Shown here: positions 25,939 through 53,161 of the stretch, in pieces
Numbering within the stretch: position 1 is the stretch's first letter
How the letters are laid out: each line of letters begins with the position of its first letter
From: Nymphaea colorata
Taxonomy: Eukaryota > Streptophyta > Magnoliopsida > Nymphaeales > Nymphaeaceae
DNA: 64,000 nt
Direction of reading: 5' to 3'
NCBI RefSeq assembly: GCF_008831285.2
Contig: NC_045142.1
Span: 2,423,001 to 2,487,000 of the forward strand
The notes under the pieces: generated by a model
Seen by the model: only the letters and a program-made list of their open reading frames with translations
What the model was told of the DNA's origin: nothing
Database searches by the model: none
Program-made: the position numbers and the translations under genes

Positions 25939-28250
25939 GGAATTAGGATTAGGTAATCTCTCCTCAAAGAAGATTGAAATCAGGTTAAGAATGTCGCCGT
26001 GAAATTTGGTTCTACCAGGTTGTCCAAGTTGTCGATGCATGTACCAACAATAAGTAGTGAAGCTACCTTGTGGCTAGCATGGGCAATGGCCCACTCCAGC
26101 CTGAGCAAGCACTTAAAAAAGTTTTAGTATGATAACGCTGGACTCAGACCGAGCTATATGCAGGGCCCACACCAGACTTAGGTTGCTACTCTGTAGTCCA
26201 ATATGTACCCAACCCATTGCAATAATCTTAACTAAAAATTCTAGCTCCACCACTGCCAACAACCTTCTGATTGAGCAAGATGAGAAGGTGAATAGGTGCT
26301 TGACCTTCGCCTGCATGAAAGGTTGGTGCACTGGGTTGAACTCTGCCTGTCATGGGAAAGCAATTCTTAGGAAACAAAAGATGTAAGTCTGGTGAACATA
26401 TTACTCTGTTTAAGAAGCATTATGAAATGACCACCATAGTTGGTTAAAGGGTAACCAAGTAATGACCTTGAATCAAGTTTCAATTCTAGCATTTGTTACT
26501 TAAGATTTTGTTAAGTCATGTTGATCTAGTAAAGCTTGGTTGTTGTTGAGGCTCATTTTCTAGTTAAACTAGAAGCAAAAAAGTTATAAAGTATAAGTTG
26601 CAGTTTTTTTTTTCTTTTTCCTGAAAAGTAGCTCCATAAAGCAACCACTATTCACTACTATGCCTTTTCAAAATGAAGGCTAATAACAAGGATGGATTGC
26701 CATGGGTGGAAGGAGTTGGCTTCCTAAGAATGCTTTTGGAGAAAAATGAGATTTGAATCTCAATAGATGCATATTATTGATCTGGAAAGTGACATTGATA
26801 CCTAGATTGGAGATTTGGACTGGGTGGGTTGAGACTCAGTTAGTACTTGTGTGACCTGGGCTCGGTTCAGTTTTGAACTTGGTATTTCATGTCGTATATG
26901 TTTTAAAAATAACATATTCTTTCTTCAAGAGATGTATTGTGATTATGTCCAGTATCTGATCGGTCTAACTTAAAAACAACATTTATAACTATATCATGTT
27001 CCTTAGGATAAGAACATGTGTATTGAAAACACGAGGTTCCTCTTATCAAACGCTTTCTTGAACTCACGGTCTTCCTCGATACTGTTCAGATCAGACGGTG
27101 TCTGGGCAAATCTAAGTCGAACCGAACCCTTTTTTTCACCAATTGGAGCACTGGGCATTTCATTTTTTTAATTGTTTATTCTCAAATTTTTCTTATTTTC
27201 GTTATTTTTTATCTATTTTTTACATTCACATACAAACTTAAATTTAATCCGATTCATAAAAAGATTGTGGTTCTGATTGGACTCAGTCGATTTTTTTATT
27301 TAAATGAAGTTATTGACCGATTCAATTTCTTAAAATTACCTCACAAATTATAGATGGCTTATTACTCCACATAACGGTTCTACTTTTCATGGATTCCCGA
27401 GGATTTTTTTTTTGGTAAGTGAGAGGAAATCCTTTTATTCGAGGTGATGCTCTTGCTATACTTCAACTTGTATATCAATATTCTTTCTACAAGACATTAT
27501 AAAAATCCGAAACGATGACCATCAGCGCACCAAATACACTTAGATTCTGATTAGCAGTTAAGAGATTAACAAGGGGCGGTTACTTGGATCTTCAGTTATC
27601 CATACCCATAATAATTAGTGCACATTTAACTATGATTAATTAAACTATTTCCTAAACAACAATTTTCTCATGTTAAATTAAATAACTCCTATTCTTGGCT
27701 AACGTAGTTTTTCTTTATTATTCAATTTAAGACAGACAAGTCTGATCTTCCCACACATGTAAATTTGTCAACCGTATCCGCAGCCTAAATATCTTGGCTC
27801 ACAATGAGTTTGTTTGACTTAATAATTTAATTTATGACTTATTAACTTTGAGTTAATTTATTATTTTAGAATATAGTATAATTTTGACTTGATAATTTAG
27901 TTTCAACTTAATAAGCCTTAGTAGTTAACGTATGTAACATCTCATATATAAGTTTAGTCCTGCATTAAATATTATTAAAAATTTTAAGAGGCTTATAAGG
28001 GTATATTGCCTTTGTCGTAGTTTTTTTACGCTAAAATTTACATGGTTCATCAAACAAGTCGGATCTTTTACATTTCAGAATCAAATTCCGGTACAATAAG
28101 ATCGGGTATGAATTCCACCCGTTTAGCCACGAACCGGGCGTGCATCTGAAATACGAAATGTCCGTAGCAAAAATCCGAATTTTGGTGAAAGTATAAGGGG
28201 TATCTTGTAAAATAATATCATTTCCACCCTAGTGTCCAGACACAAAAGGA

Positions 28251-28407: not shown

Positions 28408-31400
28408 ATGGAGGGAGAGGAATTCCAACTCCACAACACAATGACGAAGCAAAAGGAGCCTTTCCGCCCTAGGGTTCCGGGGAAGGTCGGGATGTACGTC
28501 TGTGGCGTTACGGCCTACGATCTGAGCCATATCGGCCATGCCCGAGTATACGTCGCCTTCGACGTCCTCTACAGGTCCTTCCTTTTTCTCTTCTTTCCGG
28601 ACAGTCGAATCCCTTGAAATTTTTCGGCGGTCAACATTTTGTGGAGTTTATGGTTTTGAACTTCGCTGTTTGCTTTTTTTTAATGCGTTTTTTTTTCTTG
28701 TTTGGGGAAAGCGAAGGTGATTTGTCATTTACTTGCTCTTACTTCTCCTTTCTACTCCTCCTTTAAAGAAATTGAAAATTGATTTTGTTCTATTGTAAAG
28801 TTTCTAAAAATCATATGCTTCAGACAAGCGGTGATGGTTGTGCTTCTGGCTGAGCAAGTATCAAAAAGCGAAGTTGATTATGAGTCTGGGTTCTCTCTGT
28901 TTTGGTATAAATGTTGTGGCATGTGAAGTTTGTGAGCGCTGGATCTTAGTGTTGGTTGCTTACTAATTAGTTTATTTGTGATGATGCTTGTTTTTACAAA
29001 TTTCGACTGCTTTTTTTATTTGCCAATTGTGAGAATTTAGTGGTCGTTCACCTGGTCGACGTTTAGTCCTAATAGAATCTTGTTCTGTATTGGATATCGA
29101 GGAGCAGATATCTCAAGCATTTAGGATATGAAGTAAATTATGTGCGTAACTTCACAGATGTAGATGACAAGGTAAGCTAACGGAACTTTTCTTTTTTTTT
29201 GGTTCATTAAGATCCATGACATCTTTGTGTTGAATGATATTCCTTATTTTGTTGTTCTCAATATAGAGGTTTTATATACTGTGTAAAGAGGTTTGTTAGT
29301 CTGATTGGTTGACGGAGCAATTTAGGTAATCAAGGCCAACCGGAGGGAATGATATTTTACATTCATATGAAGTTTGATACGAGGGTCACAGTTCCTCAAA
29401 CAGCTGCCTGACATTTAATGCGTTTATTGTTTATACTAGAAGTGGGACTTTCTTTGTGACATTTTCTAACAATATCACCTACAGACATTTACCGTTAACA
29501 CAAGTTATTTTCTTTTGAACTTGATGCCTCTAGGTAGAAGTGCCTTTGGAGCCTTTAGTACTCTTTCTTTTGGCTAGGAGCCTAGGATGCCTAATAGGGA
29601 ACATGATGTTGCAACAATTCTGACTGTGATTTAGAGAGCATTGCCAATGGCCAGCTTTATTGCCTCTATGCATTGTCACATTAAACGGGTACGGGTATTA
29701 TACGGCGAAGAAAAAAATGGGTATAATACGGCAAAGTTATATATCTCGAAAATAAAACGGGAAAAAGACGGCAAATTTTTAAAAAATAAATAAAAATCCT
29801 GATAATTATATAAAAAGAAAGTAAATGAGAAATTAAAAAAAACAGTGAAAAATCACTAGATAAGCAACAAATTAAAATTAGATAATGAAAACTAACAGTC
29901 TAACAAATGCATAAGCATAACTAACAAATGCATAACTAACAAAATGACTAGATAAGCAACATGCATTGATGCATACGGCAACAAGAAAATGCAGGGGAAA
30001 TAACTTAAAGTCTTAAAAAGAGAAAAAAACAAACCAAAACAGCTAAATAGAACATGGAAAGAGAACCTGTCACCGTTCGAATGAAAAAGAGACTTCAACC
30101 GAATGAAAACGAGATGGAGACAAAGGAAGTCGAATCTTGAATGCCCTCCTCTGCAGCCGGATGAAAATGAGAAGAAGACGATCAGACCAGACGAAACCAG
30201 CCGAATGTCGAATGCCCTGCTCTTTAGAGTTCAGATTCTTCAGAATAATCTCGAACGCCTCTCTGTCTCGAACGGTCGAAGAGAAGACTCACGAAGAATG
30301 ACGGAAGAAGAACTCAAAACGTCGAAGACTCACGAAGAAAACTCGTCGATTTCAAGTTTTTAACCCTAAGCCCTCTTTTGCTATGTGAAAATACTCTTTT
30401 GCCACTAAAAGGTCGAACAAGTTTGAAAAAAAACAAATGTTTTAAACAATATTACAACTGTGCCATTTTCATTCTTGGACCGTTAAAGGAAAACGCGAGA
30501 CGCGTTTTATACGCGTTTTTTAAAATTTGCCGTTTTTTTTAAAAAGACGCGTTTTATTCCCGTTTTTTTCGGCTGAAGTGTTTTTAGCATATAATACGCG
30601 TTTTTTTCAATATAACGCCGTTTTTTGTGACAACTATGCATGGTATCCTTTGAGACCTGAGCCTCTTTTCCCACAGAGAAACAATTATTCATGCATGACA
30701 TAAGCCTCTTTCGTGTCATCTACTTACTCTATAACTTGTCATGTTTCAAAGCAACCGTGATCTGAGGCTTCCATTCACGTGCAGGCCAGTTAACAATCAA
30801 GTCAGCGGAAGATTAAAAATGTCTCCTTGATCCAAATTATCTAAACTAAGAAAAAGTTAAAAAATCATGTGAATAAAGGTTGTAGTTCATGTTTATTCTT
30901 ATAATTATCTATAGTCATGATTCTTCAGTGTCTGTTAGGCCAGTAGAGGAAAGCTAATTGATTGAGTCCATTGCTATCCAGCAATTTATTCAAGCTTGTT
31001 GAATCTAGGACTGATACATTCATGAAAATTTGGACCTGTGAAATCATTTAATTCTTTGTAAATGGTTCTCTATGGAACCAAAATAGCATACTCAGGTTGC
31101 ATAAGTTGATAGCATGTGTACAAAATAGGACTGGGAACACCTCTAGTCAGACTCTGACCTAGTCAACATAGAACTGATGGCGTATTTTTGTCCATGACAC
31201 CTGAAAATTAACAGTCAAATCCAGGTCAGATATTCAACAGAAATGATTCTTAGTTGTCCAATTAATAGTAGTACTGATTCTGTAAAAAGTTTCCATAATA
31301 TTTCCAAAAGTTGAATGCATACCATATCTCAAATCCTGTGGATTTCTCTCTGTCCATTTCGTTTAAACCGCTTAAGCACATAATACATAGTTTCTGAGAT

Positions 31401-34400
31401 GCCTTTTTGAGCTTTTAGTATATCCCTCATTATATTTATGCCCATTTGACTCGCGATTTGATTAAACAGTGAGTTGAGTTAGAGAAAAAGATGAAATATT
31501 TTATATGGTTGATAGCCTAATTGAGCTGTGAGAACATGGATGGGGGTTGGTGGAGTTCTCTCACAATATCACATTTGAGCTATAATAGAATTCTGAAACC
31601 AAGTTAAGTTTTGATTCAGTAGGGTGGTCATTTTGAAGCAATCCCGCAAATGCATTCTTTCTGAATATGGAATTTGCCCATGTCTGTGAGAAAAATAGAA
31701 TATCAGTTAAACAGAATGCAATTCAAGGTTCTATAGAGTTTTTTCCCCTTAAAGAGAAGGAATATGTGTACCTTTAGTTGTTTTGTGGCATCACTTGCTG
31801 GCAGTATTTATTGATCTACTTTATCACCTTTTCTAGTTAGCTCCTCTATATACATTTGAAGAACATTTTTGTAGCATATTCTCACAGAATGTGCTTATGC
31901 AAAACTATATGTCCAATTATATTTTGGGTTTAACTGTTTTCCTTTTTCTTTTCTGAAATTGGTCTTGCTTGTTGTTGTCTGTAAAGGTAGTAGGATATAT
32001 TCTTCTTGTGTCTTCTTCCTGAGTAGCTCTGACATTGTTTTTTATGGGTGAGATTCATCTAATATTTCTCAGTGCTCTTGACTATGTTTAGTTTTCATGG
32101 TGCACATACTGCTGTGTTTTCCTTGATGATCAACCTCATCTGTGAAGGTTAATAATTCTATAGATAATCCGAAGGGCAAATGAGCTAGGTGAAGATCCAA
32201 TAAGCTTGAGTGCTCGGTTTTGTGAGGAGTTTCTTCTTGATATGGCTGACCTTCAGTGCCTGCCTCCTACAGTCCAACCTCGTGTATCTGATCACATACC
32301 TCAGATCATTGAAATGATACAAAAGGTACTGCACATTGTAATCTATTGTAATTCAATTGAAATATGATTACGACATTTCATATCTGGGCAAATATTGGAT
32401 ATCATACGATCTTTTTAACCTTTTAGTCCAGAATTCTGTTGGATGTACTTTGAAACATGCTTTTAATTCTGTCACTGGTGCTGTATGTGTGGTCTGAAAG
32501 AGGGCATACAAAAATTTGGGCTCTCTTAATTTTGAGTTGTTTATTTGCCTTTTCACTGGGTAGCCAGCATATGCTTGTTTAGCATAAGTATTCTACTTCT
32601 CTCAACCACTGTTTTAGTCTGAGTAGCAGCTATACGTGTAGGCAATTAAATTTGTAGCTTTTATGCCAGCTTCATGCATGTTGACGTTGATTTCTTTTAT
32701 CATTTTCTTTGAGCCTTTTGAGATGTTGCTCTCTCAGTCTTTTCATTTTTTTCCCAATGAATGAGTTTATGAGGTGAGCCTACTCCCTCCGAATTTCAAC
32801 ATCAGGCTAACACACTTATTTAATGAAATGAGCAAGCTTGAGTCTAGGCTTATCCTTGTTTTCTCAAGAGTGTCATGTTTGACAGTTCGACCTAAGCATC
32901 ATAATCTCATTAAAGTTCATGTTGTTGTAAGTATGCACAAGAACTTGTTAATGTATATTTCTCTTGACACAGTTATGACTTGCATTGTCTTATATCAAAC
33001 TAAAATACAGGTACTTCTTAGTTTATTCATTGGGTAAAGTTTGTTGAATCAAGCTTGAGCTTAGCTGATCTAGCAAAACTGGTTCTGCTTAGGTATATGT
33101 TTCCCAACCAAGTCTAAAAAGCTGGTTGCATGTTAACATCAAGGTTGCTCATAATGTTGCTAATGTTCTTCTTTTGGCAGCAAAAAGTAGTTGCTGGCCA
33201 TTTAAGGGATGTCCATTATATATACTTGGCCAAATTTTCAATTGAAAAATGCTTGTTCTGATGGGTATAAAAGTAGGTGCTCTTTGGTTTCCCTATTCAG
33301 TATGCAATATCTTGTTACTGGAAGTTGTTTTTTATGATACTTGTTTGTTGATAGATCATCGATAATGGATGTGCCTATGTGCTAGAAGGGGATGTGTATT
33401 TCTCCGTTGACAAGTCTCCTGATTATGGTCGGTTATCTGGGAGGAAACTAGAGGATAATCGAGCTGGGGAACGTGTTGCTGTGGATGAAAGAAAAAGAAA
33501 CGCTGCTGACTTTGCTCTGTGGAAGGTAGGTTACTCATGGCAGTAATTTCATTTATGTTTTCAATGGAATTTGTAATCTGGCTTTCATGTTGGATAATTT
33601 GTTTTGAATGCCAAATTATCTTCAATCATTTCAGTCAGCAAAGCCTGGTGAACCAACGTGGGACAGCCCTTGGGGACCAGGTAGACCAGGGTGGCACATT
33701 GAGTGCAGCGCCATGAGTTCTCAGTACCTGGGCCATGCTTTTGACATCCATGGTGGTGGGATGGACCTGATATTCCCTCATCATGAAAATGAGATTGCTC
33801 AGAGCTGTGCTGCCTGCCCAGAGAGCAATGTTAGTTACTGGGTGCATAATGGTTTTGTCACTGAGAACAAGGAAAAGATGTCCAAGTCTCTGGGAAATTT
33901 TTCACGATTCGTACGGTAAGGTCAAATTTTCTAGCTGATGAGAACTAATATTATTTCTCTGCTTATGTCCTGCCATGTCTCCATGCATAAAGTTTGTAAT
34001 GTATCTGTTAAATGTGTAGGTCACTGAAAGATATCATCCACTTGCTCTGAGGCTTTTCTTGATGGATACTCATTATCGCTCTCCTGTTAATTATTCGGAA
34101 GCTCAACTAGAAAGTGCATCAGACCGTCTATTTTATATTTATCAGGTATATTGCATTCTTATCATTGATTATGACCTAGAATCAACTCCCTTTGGGCATG
34201 AGCCAGCATGCATTATGCATGCCTGCATGTTATGGCTTTTGGAAGTCTCAAGTATGTGTTGTTTTCAGACATTGCATGATTGTGAAGCAACTTTATCGCA
34301 ATTTCAAGATAAACCTCCCAATGGGCGTGTTACACCTGATACAAAGAATTGCATTGACAAGTTCCGGAGGGATGTTGAGTCTTCAATGGCAAATGACCTG

Positions 34401-34964
34401 CACACAAATGATGTGTTAAAGGATCTTTGGGACCCACTTAAGGCCATGAATGCTCTTAACTCGGGCAAGGTATGTATTGTATCACTTGATTCTATTCTCT
34501 ATGTTCCTAGTTTAGGTAATTCAATCAGCTTCACTTGTATTCAGGGAGGGCAGAAGCAGCAGGCTTCTCGTATCTTGTCCCTGATCGCATTGGAAAAGGA
34601 AGTGAAGGACGTTCTGACCATCCTTGGACTGATATCGACATCACCATGTGAGGTATGCTACATGCTTGAGGAATTACGAAAGGCTGATTTGCTTCCTGAA
34701 ACATGATCAAAATTTTCTCCTGAAATAAAACAGGTCTTACTGCAACTGAGAAACTTGGCACTCAAGAGGGCACAACTGACAGAAGAGCAGTTGCTTCAGC
34801 GAGTTGAAGAAAGAGTTGCAGCAAGAAAGAACAAGGAATATGAGAAGTCTGACAAAATAAGGAACGAATTGGCAAAGCTTGGGATAGGCCTAATGGATAA
34901 CGATCCAAGGGGAAGAATCTGGATACCGATTGTGCCACCTGAAAAGGAGGCGGCTGCTGCTTGA
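28408..34964 (+). CDS. Cysteinyl-tRNA synthetase, organelle-type (nine exons, frame break)
   Basis: Class I enzyme that charges tRNA-Cys with cysteine. Exons: 28408-28574, 29108-29171, 32164-32325, 33355-33525, 33635-33915, 34020-34145, 34269-34469, 34545-34652 and 34734-34964; about 503 residues. Visible motifs are C32 and HIGH (41-44), WHIEC with C212, PHHENE (H237, E241; with C32 and C212 the expected zinc ligands), and KMSKS (269-273). The text [18 protein letters not shown] and VLTILGL resembles the plant organellar enzyme more than the cytosolic ones. Two oddities: no AUG-initiated transit peptide precedes residue 1, and exon 5 appears one T short in a T run (33898-33902). The frame therefore does not join exon 6 with the obvious donor at 33916, though a weaker donor at 33911 would keep the frame. 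Identity is firm; the exact product of this allele is uncertain. Confidence 0.92.
29172..32163 (+). other. Large CysRS intron 2
   Basis: A 3.0-kb GT-AG intron between the DVDDK-encoding exon and the exon beginning IIRRANELG. It hosts a 961-bp transposon (29,673-30,633). The rest is T-rich intronic sequence without other features that I can identify. Confidence 0.85.
29673..30633. mobile_element. 961-bp non-autonomous element with 7-bp target duplication
   Basis: Begins TTGTCACA and ends TGTGACAA, an 8-bp perfect inverted terminus, flanked by CTATGCA on both sides. Both ends carry sub-terminal acggc/acggg words next to A/T runs (tattatacggcg on the left, taacgccg on the right), so the inverted similarity extends loosely inward. 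An 86-codon plus-strand frame inside (30103-30363) has no known domain. The superfamily is uncertain: a 7-8 bp duplication fits hAT, and a longer one would suggest a Mutator-like origin. Confidence 0.7.
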
Positions 34965-36974: not shown

Positions 36975-39469
36975 TCAGTCACGAGATGTTGGACCAACTG
37001 TTTCCTTCCGGCTTCCCACATTTTCATTTTTGCTGCTGGTGGTGTTTGGAACATCTACATTGTTGTTCTTGCCCTTGGCATCGACACCAAGATAATCTGT
37101 CAAAACCTTCTTCACACCAAATCCTCGAGATGGGGCCTTGTTGTGGATGAATGGGGAGTTAGGTCCCTTTGCAGGGCTGATTAGTGGCACCGGTGAGAAG
37201 CTCGGCGTCGTGAAAGCAGTTGCATATGGGGTAGAAGACACAGGCACAGGGTAGGGCAGAGAGACCTTCTTATGCGCCAGAACACTAACTGTAGGTACAG
37301 ATGGGTACTGATCGGCATGTTTGGTCATGTCATCTACATAGAGAACATCATCTATTCGAGCAATGATGTTGAATGACAAGCTCTCTAGAACCCTAGAGTA
37401 GCTCTCTAGAATGGACTGCCCAACATCCTACCAATTCAAGTTACATGTCAGAACTGATAACAATCATCGTTCAGAATCCAATTGCAAAACGTAAGTAAGA
37501 AGTAGTTCGTAGAAAAGATGGACACCTTGTTATACTGAATTTTGCTCATATCCAAGGTAGTTTGTGAAAGACCAGGGAATCTCTGCTTCAAGCAAAGCAA
37601 GAGGCTTTCAGCTCTTCCTGCAAGTAGTCCTCGTTTATCTGCGTCCAGCATCAGGTCTCGAACCATGTCCCATGAAGATCTTGAATTAGAACGATTAGTG
37701 GTGGCTGCAGGCTTGGTGCTTGTCCTTTTTCTCCATACATAAATGGATGTCTCGACACGGTTTGCAATTTCAAGCGCTTGGTGTTCGGAAGACAAGTCCA
37801 AGCAATCAAGAAGGCACTCGGGAGAGAACTGGTCCGAAGTAATATATCTATGGATTACATCTCCTAGACTTGATCTTCCATTCTAGAACAAGAACAAGCA
37901 ACACTGCTCATTAGCATAGCCCACTAAGCATGCTTGATGACAGAAGAAGCCAAATGAAATAACCTCATTGGATACCTTAGGAAGAGATTCTAGATAGCTT
38001 TCAGGAATCTCCATTTCAGCAAGAGCGCTACTGTTTATAGACATGGCAGCTTTAAGTATCTGGTTTGTGCATTCACGTCTGTGCTGCAATTCCTTCCTTG
38101 ATTTCTCATGAAGACCACAAGGAGGAACTCTGGGGACAGGTAGCCACCATTTCTCCTCTTGGCGTCTGCCAGATCTTGGGTAAGATCCGGAATTATCATC
38201 AGGCGCTACAATACCTTGATCAACATACCAGAATTCCGTGTCGCTGAAACTGTCCAGTATTTCCTGTCATATTAGAAGTTTTCAGAACCATGCAAGCTTG
38301 AAGACTGGGGACTAAGAAACAGTTTGGAGGAATCTTACAAGCAGCATATTGTCAAGTTTCTTCAGAGCAGGAAGATTCATATAAAGATCTGAACGCGGCC
38401 TGCACGTCATTACCTAATCCATAGAAACCAAATCTTAATCTACTACCAGCAAGGTCTAACAGCGACAAGATAAAACAAGAATCATCACTGAGAAAGACGG
38501 ATGAGCCGTCAGGAGACAGTGTCCCTCCAACTAAGACGAGCATATAAAGGAAAATATGAGGAACTTTTGGAAATTCAATTACCTCCAAATTAGTTCCATC
38601 AGGAAATGTTTGCCAGGAAGGGATTAATTCAACAATGTGATCGCTGACACAGACAAGCCACTCCATTTCTCTGCGCCACATTGATTTTTTCTCAGGAGAC
38701 AGCGGTTCTAATCGCCACAATTGCCCAAAAATAGTAGCTACAAGACCAAAGTTCAACCGAATTCAGACTAGGAGAAAGGCACTAGAACAGTCACTGCCCA
38801 ATTTTACATAATCCCCACAATCAATTCCGTAGAGGAAGTTAAAAAAAAACCTACCACAAAGATTCGTAATGGCATTGGAGATAGCCAGAGCGGTACAAAC
38901 ACCCTTTCCGCTACCTGACATGTCTTCCCCGAGCAGTAATTTTGAAAATCTTTCTTTCATCATCTCAGTTTCTGCAAAAGAAAAAAAGGAAGCACAGTTA
39001 TGCCTTCCCATAGCAGGAAAGCGATACAGGAACCGTTCATCTTTAACTACATTTTTCTCATCATCTGAATTCCAGTTGAAGTAACGTGTTGCCCATGTGC
39101 AAAGCGAACTTCTGGGAAAATGGGTCTCATCATTTTACATGATTTCATGGAAAACATTAACAGAAGAAATGGAAGAACCATGTTACCTGAAATTTTCTCA
39201 TCAATCTTCTCTTTCTTTTCTTCTGAAGCATGAATCTCCTCTTTCTGTCCAACACCAACACCAACCGAGCCACAGCTTGCTTCAGTCTTCCCGATTGGCC
39301 ATCCTATAGGGGGCGACTCCTCCGAGCAACTCTGCTCCTCACTAGTCCCACAACACGTCGTTGAGCTCTCACAGCTAGACCCACTCTCTCTAAATTCATC
39401 ACTCCCATTAGACACCGACATACTTCTCCCTCCCTCGACTTCCCCCTTCTTTTCTACCAATCCATCCAT
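36975..39469 (-). CDS. RopGEF with PRONE domain (seven exons)
   Basis: Plant guanine nucleotide exchange factor that activates ROP (Rho-of-plants) GTPases at the plasma membrane in polar growth and signalling. Minus-strand exons: 39187-39469, 38855-38971, 38583-38737, 38339-38413, 37976-38263, 37526-37882 and 36975-37427. All join in frame by GT-AG introns to 575 residues. The N-terminus (1-94) is variable, Ser/Glu-rich, with PPIGWPI. The PRONE domain (about 97-460) shows [11 protein letters not shown] (109-119), WRREMEW (154-160), MTCRPRSDL (187-195), [23 protein letters not shown] (249-257) and [10 protein letters not shown] at its end. The C-tail is Ser/Pro-rich, ending with [13 protein letters not shown] (527-539), a short conserved block seen in pollen-type/KPP-like RopGEFs. 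The frame is open upstream of 39469, so an upstream ATG (for example near 39.7 kb) is possible; the chosen start resembles the length of relatives. Confidence 0.92.
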
Positions 39470-52476: not shown

Positions 52477-52869
52477 TCAAACTTGCCAAAGAGGGGTGTA
52501 TGTTAAATCAGAGAACCACCTGAGACCGATTAAGTTTCTTGACAAACCTGCTAGTTCTGATAAAAGAATCGGCAACATTAGTAACATTTGCTGCCAGCCA
52601 TCCTGATAGAAATTGGCCGGAAAACCATCCGGCCCTGGGGTGCTTTGCGCTTTCAGGATCATAAGTGAATATGGAGGAGAGGCATTGAGGGCTATCTCCA
52701 ACCTCCAGCCCAGAACCATTTTTTTGAATGTCTCATCCAGACGCGACCTTAGAAAATTTGGGAAACACTTTCTAGGTAAATCGTAAAGCCCACGAAGCAG
52801 ACCAAATGAATGAAACAAGCCCTGGACATTCCTTCTCCTTTTTGGCTGTCGATGTGCAGTTACTATCAT
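52477..52869 (-). mobile_element. LINE (L1-type) reverse transcriptase fragment
   Basis: The minus-strand frame includes LPRKCFPNFL and then LKAQSTPGPDGFPANFYQ, which corresponds to the PGPDGFP motif at the start of plant L1 reverse transcriptase, followed by a Trp-containing segment. Only about 130 codons remain, and neither the catalytic domain nor a 3' tail is visible. It is a dead 5'-part remnant lying 300 bp past the 3' end of the universal stress protein coding region. Confidence 0.75.
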
Positions 52870-53161
52870 AATATAAGCACCACGAGATACCGTAAAGATA
52901 TGCTCTGCTGCTGATCGCTTCTGAATGTCTGATTACACAAAATTCGACATAGACCATCATATTCCATTACATTAAAGTATAACAACAATACTCCACATTT
53001 TGATCTGCTATACATAGAGAATGAACCGACCATCAACAATCTGAAGAATGCTACAGATGGACGGCTTATTATGTACTGCAATCAAACTGTCCAAATGAAA
53101 TTTTAAAAAAACCATATATTTAATGATTTATTAATTGTCTTCTAAAAGCAAAGTCAATCCC

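Follow-up and report, generated by a model that had tools for sequence, protein, structure and literature searches.

The Cysteinyl-tRNA Synthetase Gene

The window, that is, the stretch of 64,000 nt of contig C5 of the Nymphaea colorata genome analysed here (2423001-2487000; the genome comprises 407.8 Mb in 783 records), contains on its plus strand a gene for a cysteinyl-tRNA synthetase (CysRS), which extends from 28408 to 34964 and consists of nine exons. Exon 1 (28408-28574) encodes no transit-peptide-like extension and ends at a donor of the sequence GTCCTT; it is followed by exon 2 (29108-29171), exon 3 (32164-32325), exon 4 (33355-33525), exon 5 (33635-33915), which holds the KMSKS codons, exon 6 (34020-34145), exon 7 (34269-34469), exon 8 (34545-34652) and exon 9 (34734-34964), the last three letters of which (34962-34964) are the stop codon. 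The translation carries the class I signatures HIGH and KMSKS as well as the stretch HIECSAM. When exon 5 is ended at 33910 instead of 33915 (see below), the resulting model scores 508 bits against the TIGR00435 (cysS) profile, for which the cut-off is 340, and covers profile positions 2-463 of 466; the truncated product of the canonical splice reaches 420 bits, and a paralogue on contig C3 538 bits.

Two introns have features of their own. The donor of intron 1 (28575-28580) is unusual at positions +3 to +5; it nevertheless scores 6.97 bits when left out of our small donor matrix, because the exon ends in CAG. Within intron 2 (29751-30569) there are inverted arms about 730-750 nt apart, with 29762-29785 and 30516-30539 (24 nt) being 92% complementary, and the longer arms 29751-29786 and 30534-30569 75%; they may mark the two ends of a mobile element that has decayed. 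Elsewhere in the window, an open frame on the minus strand (52477-52932) contains words resembling a LINE reverse transcriptase (TPGPDGFPANFYQ), as read by eye.

The Frame Break in Exon 5

Directly after the KMSKS codons exon 5 carries a run of five T (33898-33902), as the original prediction had stated, and in its own frame EKMSKSLGN is followed by FSRFVR and a stop codon whose last letter is 33919. The continuation that had been expected if the run were one T longer is indeed present in the shifted frame, where the letters 33901-33915 read FTIRT. Joined translation bears out that the splice from 33915, in front of the canonical donor GTAAGG (33916-33921), to 34020 runs into a stop nine codons into exon 6; no uninterrupted frame was found in this gene with the canonical splice. 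Also correct was the statement that the frame is restored if exon 5 ends at 33910, in front of a candidate alternative donor GTACGG (33911-33916): with this bypass the real letters of the nine exons form one open frame up to the natural stop. A third join restoring the frame had been missed; it uses the canonical donor together with an AG within exon 6 (34029-34030) as a possible acceptor, so that the exon would begin at 34031, 11 nt further in. The break in the T run is the only lesion seen in the gene; the remaining exons join in frame. It is more than chance, because exon 5 is 281 nt long here versus 282 nt in the paralogue, exon 6 being equal in both (126 nt). The coding exons contain just two single-base runs of at least five, the T run at 33898 and AAAAA at 33492.

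The original prediction further held that known families continue with NFFT(I/V)R. As a tendency this is right, but as a rule it fails, because, of the 75 prokaryotic loci whose KMSKS can be read, 35 have exactly NFFTIR or NFFTVR and 48 have F at the second position after N, among the best 80 of at least 592 loci. This set of 80, which serves for all prokaryotic comparisons below, is biased to close relatives and includes two archaeal members by title.

A Second CysRS Gene and the Cellular Location of the Products

When the genome was searched with the profiles PF01406 and TIGR00435, only the best candidates being scored, exon matches appeared at two CysRS loci, the window and contig C3 (23764636 to 23769701), where nine exons are all open. 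By eye, from the junctions and the protein alignment, the eight introns of the window copy correspond to introns of the C3 gene. A match on contig C6 was discarded as a third CysRS; the long open frame around it appears, on reading by eye, to encode a leucyl-tRNA synthetase of the cytosolic type.

At its N-terminus the C3 protein carries an extension, some 75 residues long, which is basic, rich in S and T and poor in acidic residues (7 basic and 0 acidic among the first 40), as would be expected of the transit-peptide-like sequence of an organellar precursor. Thus, the second intact organellar CysRS gene that the original prediction had proposed to look for is present on C3, as far as sequence can tell. 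The window gene, by comparison, starts six residues ahead of the conserved QLHNTM, and upstream of its start codon (28408) no further in-frame ATG occurs as far as a stop at 28213, so that an extension could come only from a spliced upstream exon or a non-ATG start. An N-terminal transit peptide, the mark of an organellar CysRS, was not found in it. The label “organellar”, which had been given to the window gene, is therefore probably wrong, and organellar identity is rejected as the likely one, since the window copy has no extension whereas the C3 copy carries one; for the same reason the window gene is most simply regarded as the cytosolic copy, which it probably is. It is the sole CysRS without an extension found in the genome.

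Constraint and Decay

With the lesion stretch left out, the window and C3 products are identical at 223 of 276 residues before the break and at 122 of 219 after it. For this pair of copies pN/pS amounts to 0.117/0.792 up to the lesion and to 0.294/0.739 from exon 6 on; pN is below pS on both sides, which indicates that replacement changes have been held down 5′ as well as 3′ of the break. As pS is near or at saturation, the duplication is old and the copies were constrained for most of the time since, although a pairwise pN/pS is blind to recent relaxation.

Conserved columns were taken from 72 of 79 prokaryotic CysRS proteins (7 were dropped by length) from the best 80 of at least 592 loci, and in this sample the window copy departs from the consensus at 2 of 88 columns conserved to at least 95%, 6 of 110 at the 90% level and 13 of 142 at the 80% level, the corresponding figures for C3 being 1, 3 and 11. 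Where the two plant copies differ at columns with a prokaryotic majority, 11 are changed in the window copy and 8 in C3, with 20 matching in neither (again among the best 80 of at least 592). The window copy has a mean identity of 0.442 to the same 72 proteins, drawn from the best 80 of at least 592 loci, and C3 one of 0.447; the window copy is the nearer of the two to 21 of the 72. Because conserved columns are nearly all kept away from the lesion, the window copy is no aged pseudogene, a possibility which the single lesion seen and the 2 of 88 changed columns (versus 1 of 88 in C3) exclude. Changed columns 3′ of the lesion number 6 in the window copy and 2 in C3, few sites from the best 80 of at least 592 loci, and this split leans slightly against reading the gene as functional.

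Frame Breaks Elsewhere in the Assembly

No frame break was encountered in ten open frames selected from the window's other genes, nor in the small exon of a PRONE-type gene. The families matched by the ten frames include a Rab-type GTPase, the C-terminal half of a dephospho-CoA kinase, a lipid-transfer-like protein, a PRONE RopGEF and the first part of a universal stress protein; they were scanned as single frames. The PRONE-type RopGEF gene lies on the minus strand (36975-39134), its small exon, seen by eye, is present and open, and with this exon added the pieces tile the domain; PRONE is plant-specific according to Pfam.

HSP70 served as a yardstick for the genome. Among 65 matches there are 14 that span, in a single frame, at least 350 of the 599 profile positions; a stop is absent from 13 of the 14. 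Of several places where matches abut, two were looked at, and neither shows a simple homopolymer slip. One HSP70 gene (L112; C5:882400-884700), which lies among a series of HSP70 matches, has one frame break, between QRQAT and GTIAGLN and outside a homopolymer, where by eye several bases are lost; outside its break it is open over 447 profile positions. A further HSP70 place (L113) is in pieces. With no break in the scanned pieces of other genes and no clean homopolymer break in the HSP70 matches looked at, such errors are not rife in this assembly, which tempers the explanation given next.

Origin of the Break

The frame break is probably an assembly indel in a short homopolymer of an ordinary, functional and probably cytosolic CysRS gene. 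The assembled T run would then be one base short just 3′ of the KMSKS codons owing to a consensus error, while the living plant would have an intact exon 5, splice at the canonical donor at 33916 and make a normal CysRS; the reads would be expected to disagree with the assembled run. Several lines of evidence favour an assembly indel: the break is the only defect seen in a gene whose eight introns have their counterparts in the C3 copy, conserved columns show no decay and constraint is found on both sides, the break falls in one of only two coding runs of at least five, and a loss would leave no extension-less CysRS among the copies found. It is favoured as well because the genome is a long-read assembly, and residual homopolymer indels are typical of those. 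The procedure is given as PacBio RSII, Canu, Arrow and Pilon in the assembly's description (PMC7015852), and for bacterial assemblies such residual indels are stated in PMC8812927. On the other side, error hotspots are typically longer than five T, conserved columns are changed slightly more often in the window copy than in C3, and a very young real mutation would look alike.

Such a mutation, a very recent real null allele that is either fixed or heterozygous in a collapsed assembly, comes second and is in our view unlikely. The early stop lies 5′ of further exon junctions, which would leave the mRNA open to nonsense-mediated decay, and the enzyme would be supplied by the C3 gene or by the other allele. 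This takes the assembled sequence as it stands, an intact second CysRS does exist on C3, and with a young lesion the gene would otherwise be whole, as observed. A DNA search with 33636-34150 for a second haplotype copy returned only the window itself and the C3 gene (69% identical), so no such copy is in the assembly and heterozygosity is possible. However, a null allele would mean losing the only extension-less CysRS found, and the C3 product, with its transit-peptide-like extension, would have to serve the cytosol, too. That CysRS supply matters in plants is illustrated by the Arabidopsis mitochondrial CysRS SYCO, for which a deleterious point mutation is described as causing defects in the fusion of polar nuclei (PMC3073945), though this concerns the organellar gene, not the one in the window. 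A tolerated null in the sole extension-less CysRS found is, in our judgement, less likely a priori than an assembly error of this kind. Still less probable is a break that is both real and fixed, with C3 alone charging the tRNA-Cys of cytosol, mitochondria and plastids, or with recoding at a slippery heptamer.

The remaining explanations, alternative splicing and -1 frameshifting, are unlikely. The original prediction had listed the right options in assembly indel, null allele and alternative donor, the first of which we favour, but its forced alternative donor is unsupported. Rescue by another splice site, whether the donor at 33911 (giving NFSRF-VTERY) or the acceptor for an exon from 34031 (NFSRFVR-YHP), has a very small probability. 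Either join leaves the frame open to the natural stop, the donor-33911 product still clears the TIGR00435 cut-off of 340 with its 508 bits, and the replaced residues are not invariant, given NFFTIR or NFFTVR at 35 of 75 of the best 80 of at least 592 prokaryotic loci. Yet in a small matrix made from 15 other donors of the window and C3 genes, with the two contested donors outside it, the donor at 33911 has a background score of -2.61 bits (rank 198 of 384 GT sites), by which it is rejected as likely, versus 5.79 bits and rank 20 for the canonical one; the window gene's other used donors, seven in number, take ranks 1, 2 and 4 to 8, which are flattered because these donors are in the matrix. 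The weakest used C3 donor scores 1.49 bits when left out. Counts of pairs with U1 (canonical 6, alternative 5, and 5 to 9 for 16 used donors) do not separate the two. The products speak against both joins: the spacing from N to LRLF is 15 in 67, 16 in 5 and 10 in 1 of the 73 prokaryotic proteins showing both motifs (of 79 looked at, from the best 80 of at least 592 loci) and 15 in C3, whereas it would be 13, two residues short of the usual, with the donor at 33911 and 11 with the inner acceptor. The inner acceptor, moreover, would be expected to lose to another AG, which lies 11 nt upstream of it. Least credible of all is a -1 ribosomal frameshift at A AAT TTT (33895-33901), by which the conserved residues would be restored from the mRNA as assembled. 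Read in the zero frame, the heptamer conforms to the slippery pattern X XXY YYZ, and FTIRT follows 3′ of it in the -1 frame; but such a heptamer follows automatically from N-F-F codons and a missing base, and a pseudoknot-free model found no stable stimulatory structure 3′ of it, the downstream RNA showing no stability beyond that of shuffled sequences (in all 20 settings of spacer and length z lay between +0.2 and +2.2). We know of no plant housekeeping gene that works by -1 frameshifting.

Should the break be an assembly slip, its only importance would lie in correcting the gene model, which automated annotation could otherwise call a CysRS pseudogene or furnish with an invented donor at 33911. 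Were it real and fixed, one organelle-type CysRS would have to serve all three compartments.

Comparison with Known CysRS

No paper naming Nymphaea colorata together with cysteinyl-tRNA synthetase was found in a full-text search for that pairing. With exon 5 ended at 33910, the window gene is a full-length match to TIGR00435, the profile of the bacterial-type CysRS, yet the frame of this copy is broken after KMSKS. The same model aligns over its residues 7-488 with the E. coli-type CysRS structures 1LI5, 1LI7 and 1U0B (E 1.3e-117), but with a two-residue gap within NFSRF, just 5′ of the donor-33911 join. Duplication of CysRS genes of organellar origin is reportedly the subject of a study by Peeters and colleagues (2000).

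Among the Arabidopsis CysRS genes, At5g38830 and At3g56300 are predicted to be cytosolic and At2g31170 mitochondrial and plastidial, as tabulated in PMC7564348 (Table 1). The Nymphaea genome likewise has copies with and without a transit-peptide-like extension, and the introns of its two copies correspond. The likeness is one of predicted location, and unlike Arabidopsis with its two predicted cytosolic enzymes, Nymphaea has a single extension-less copy, which is broken in the assembly.
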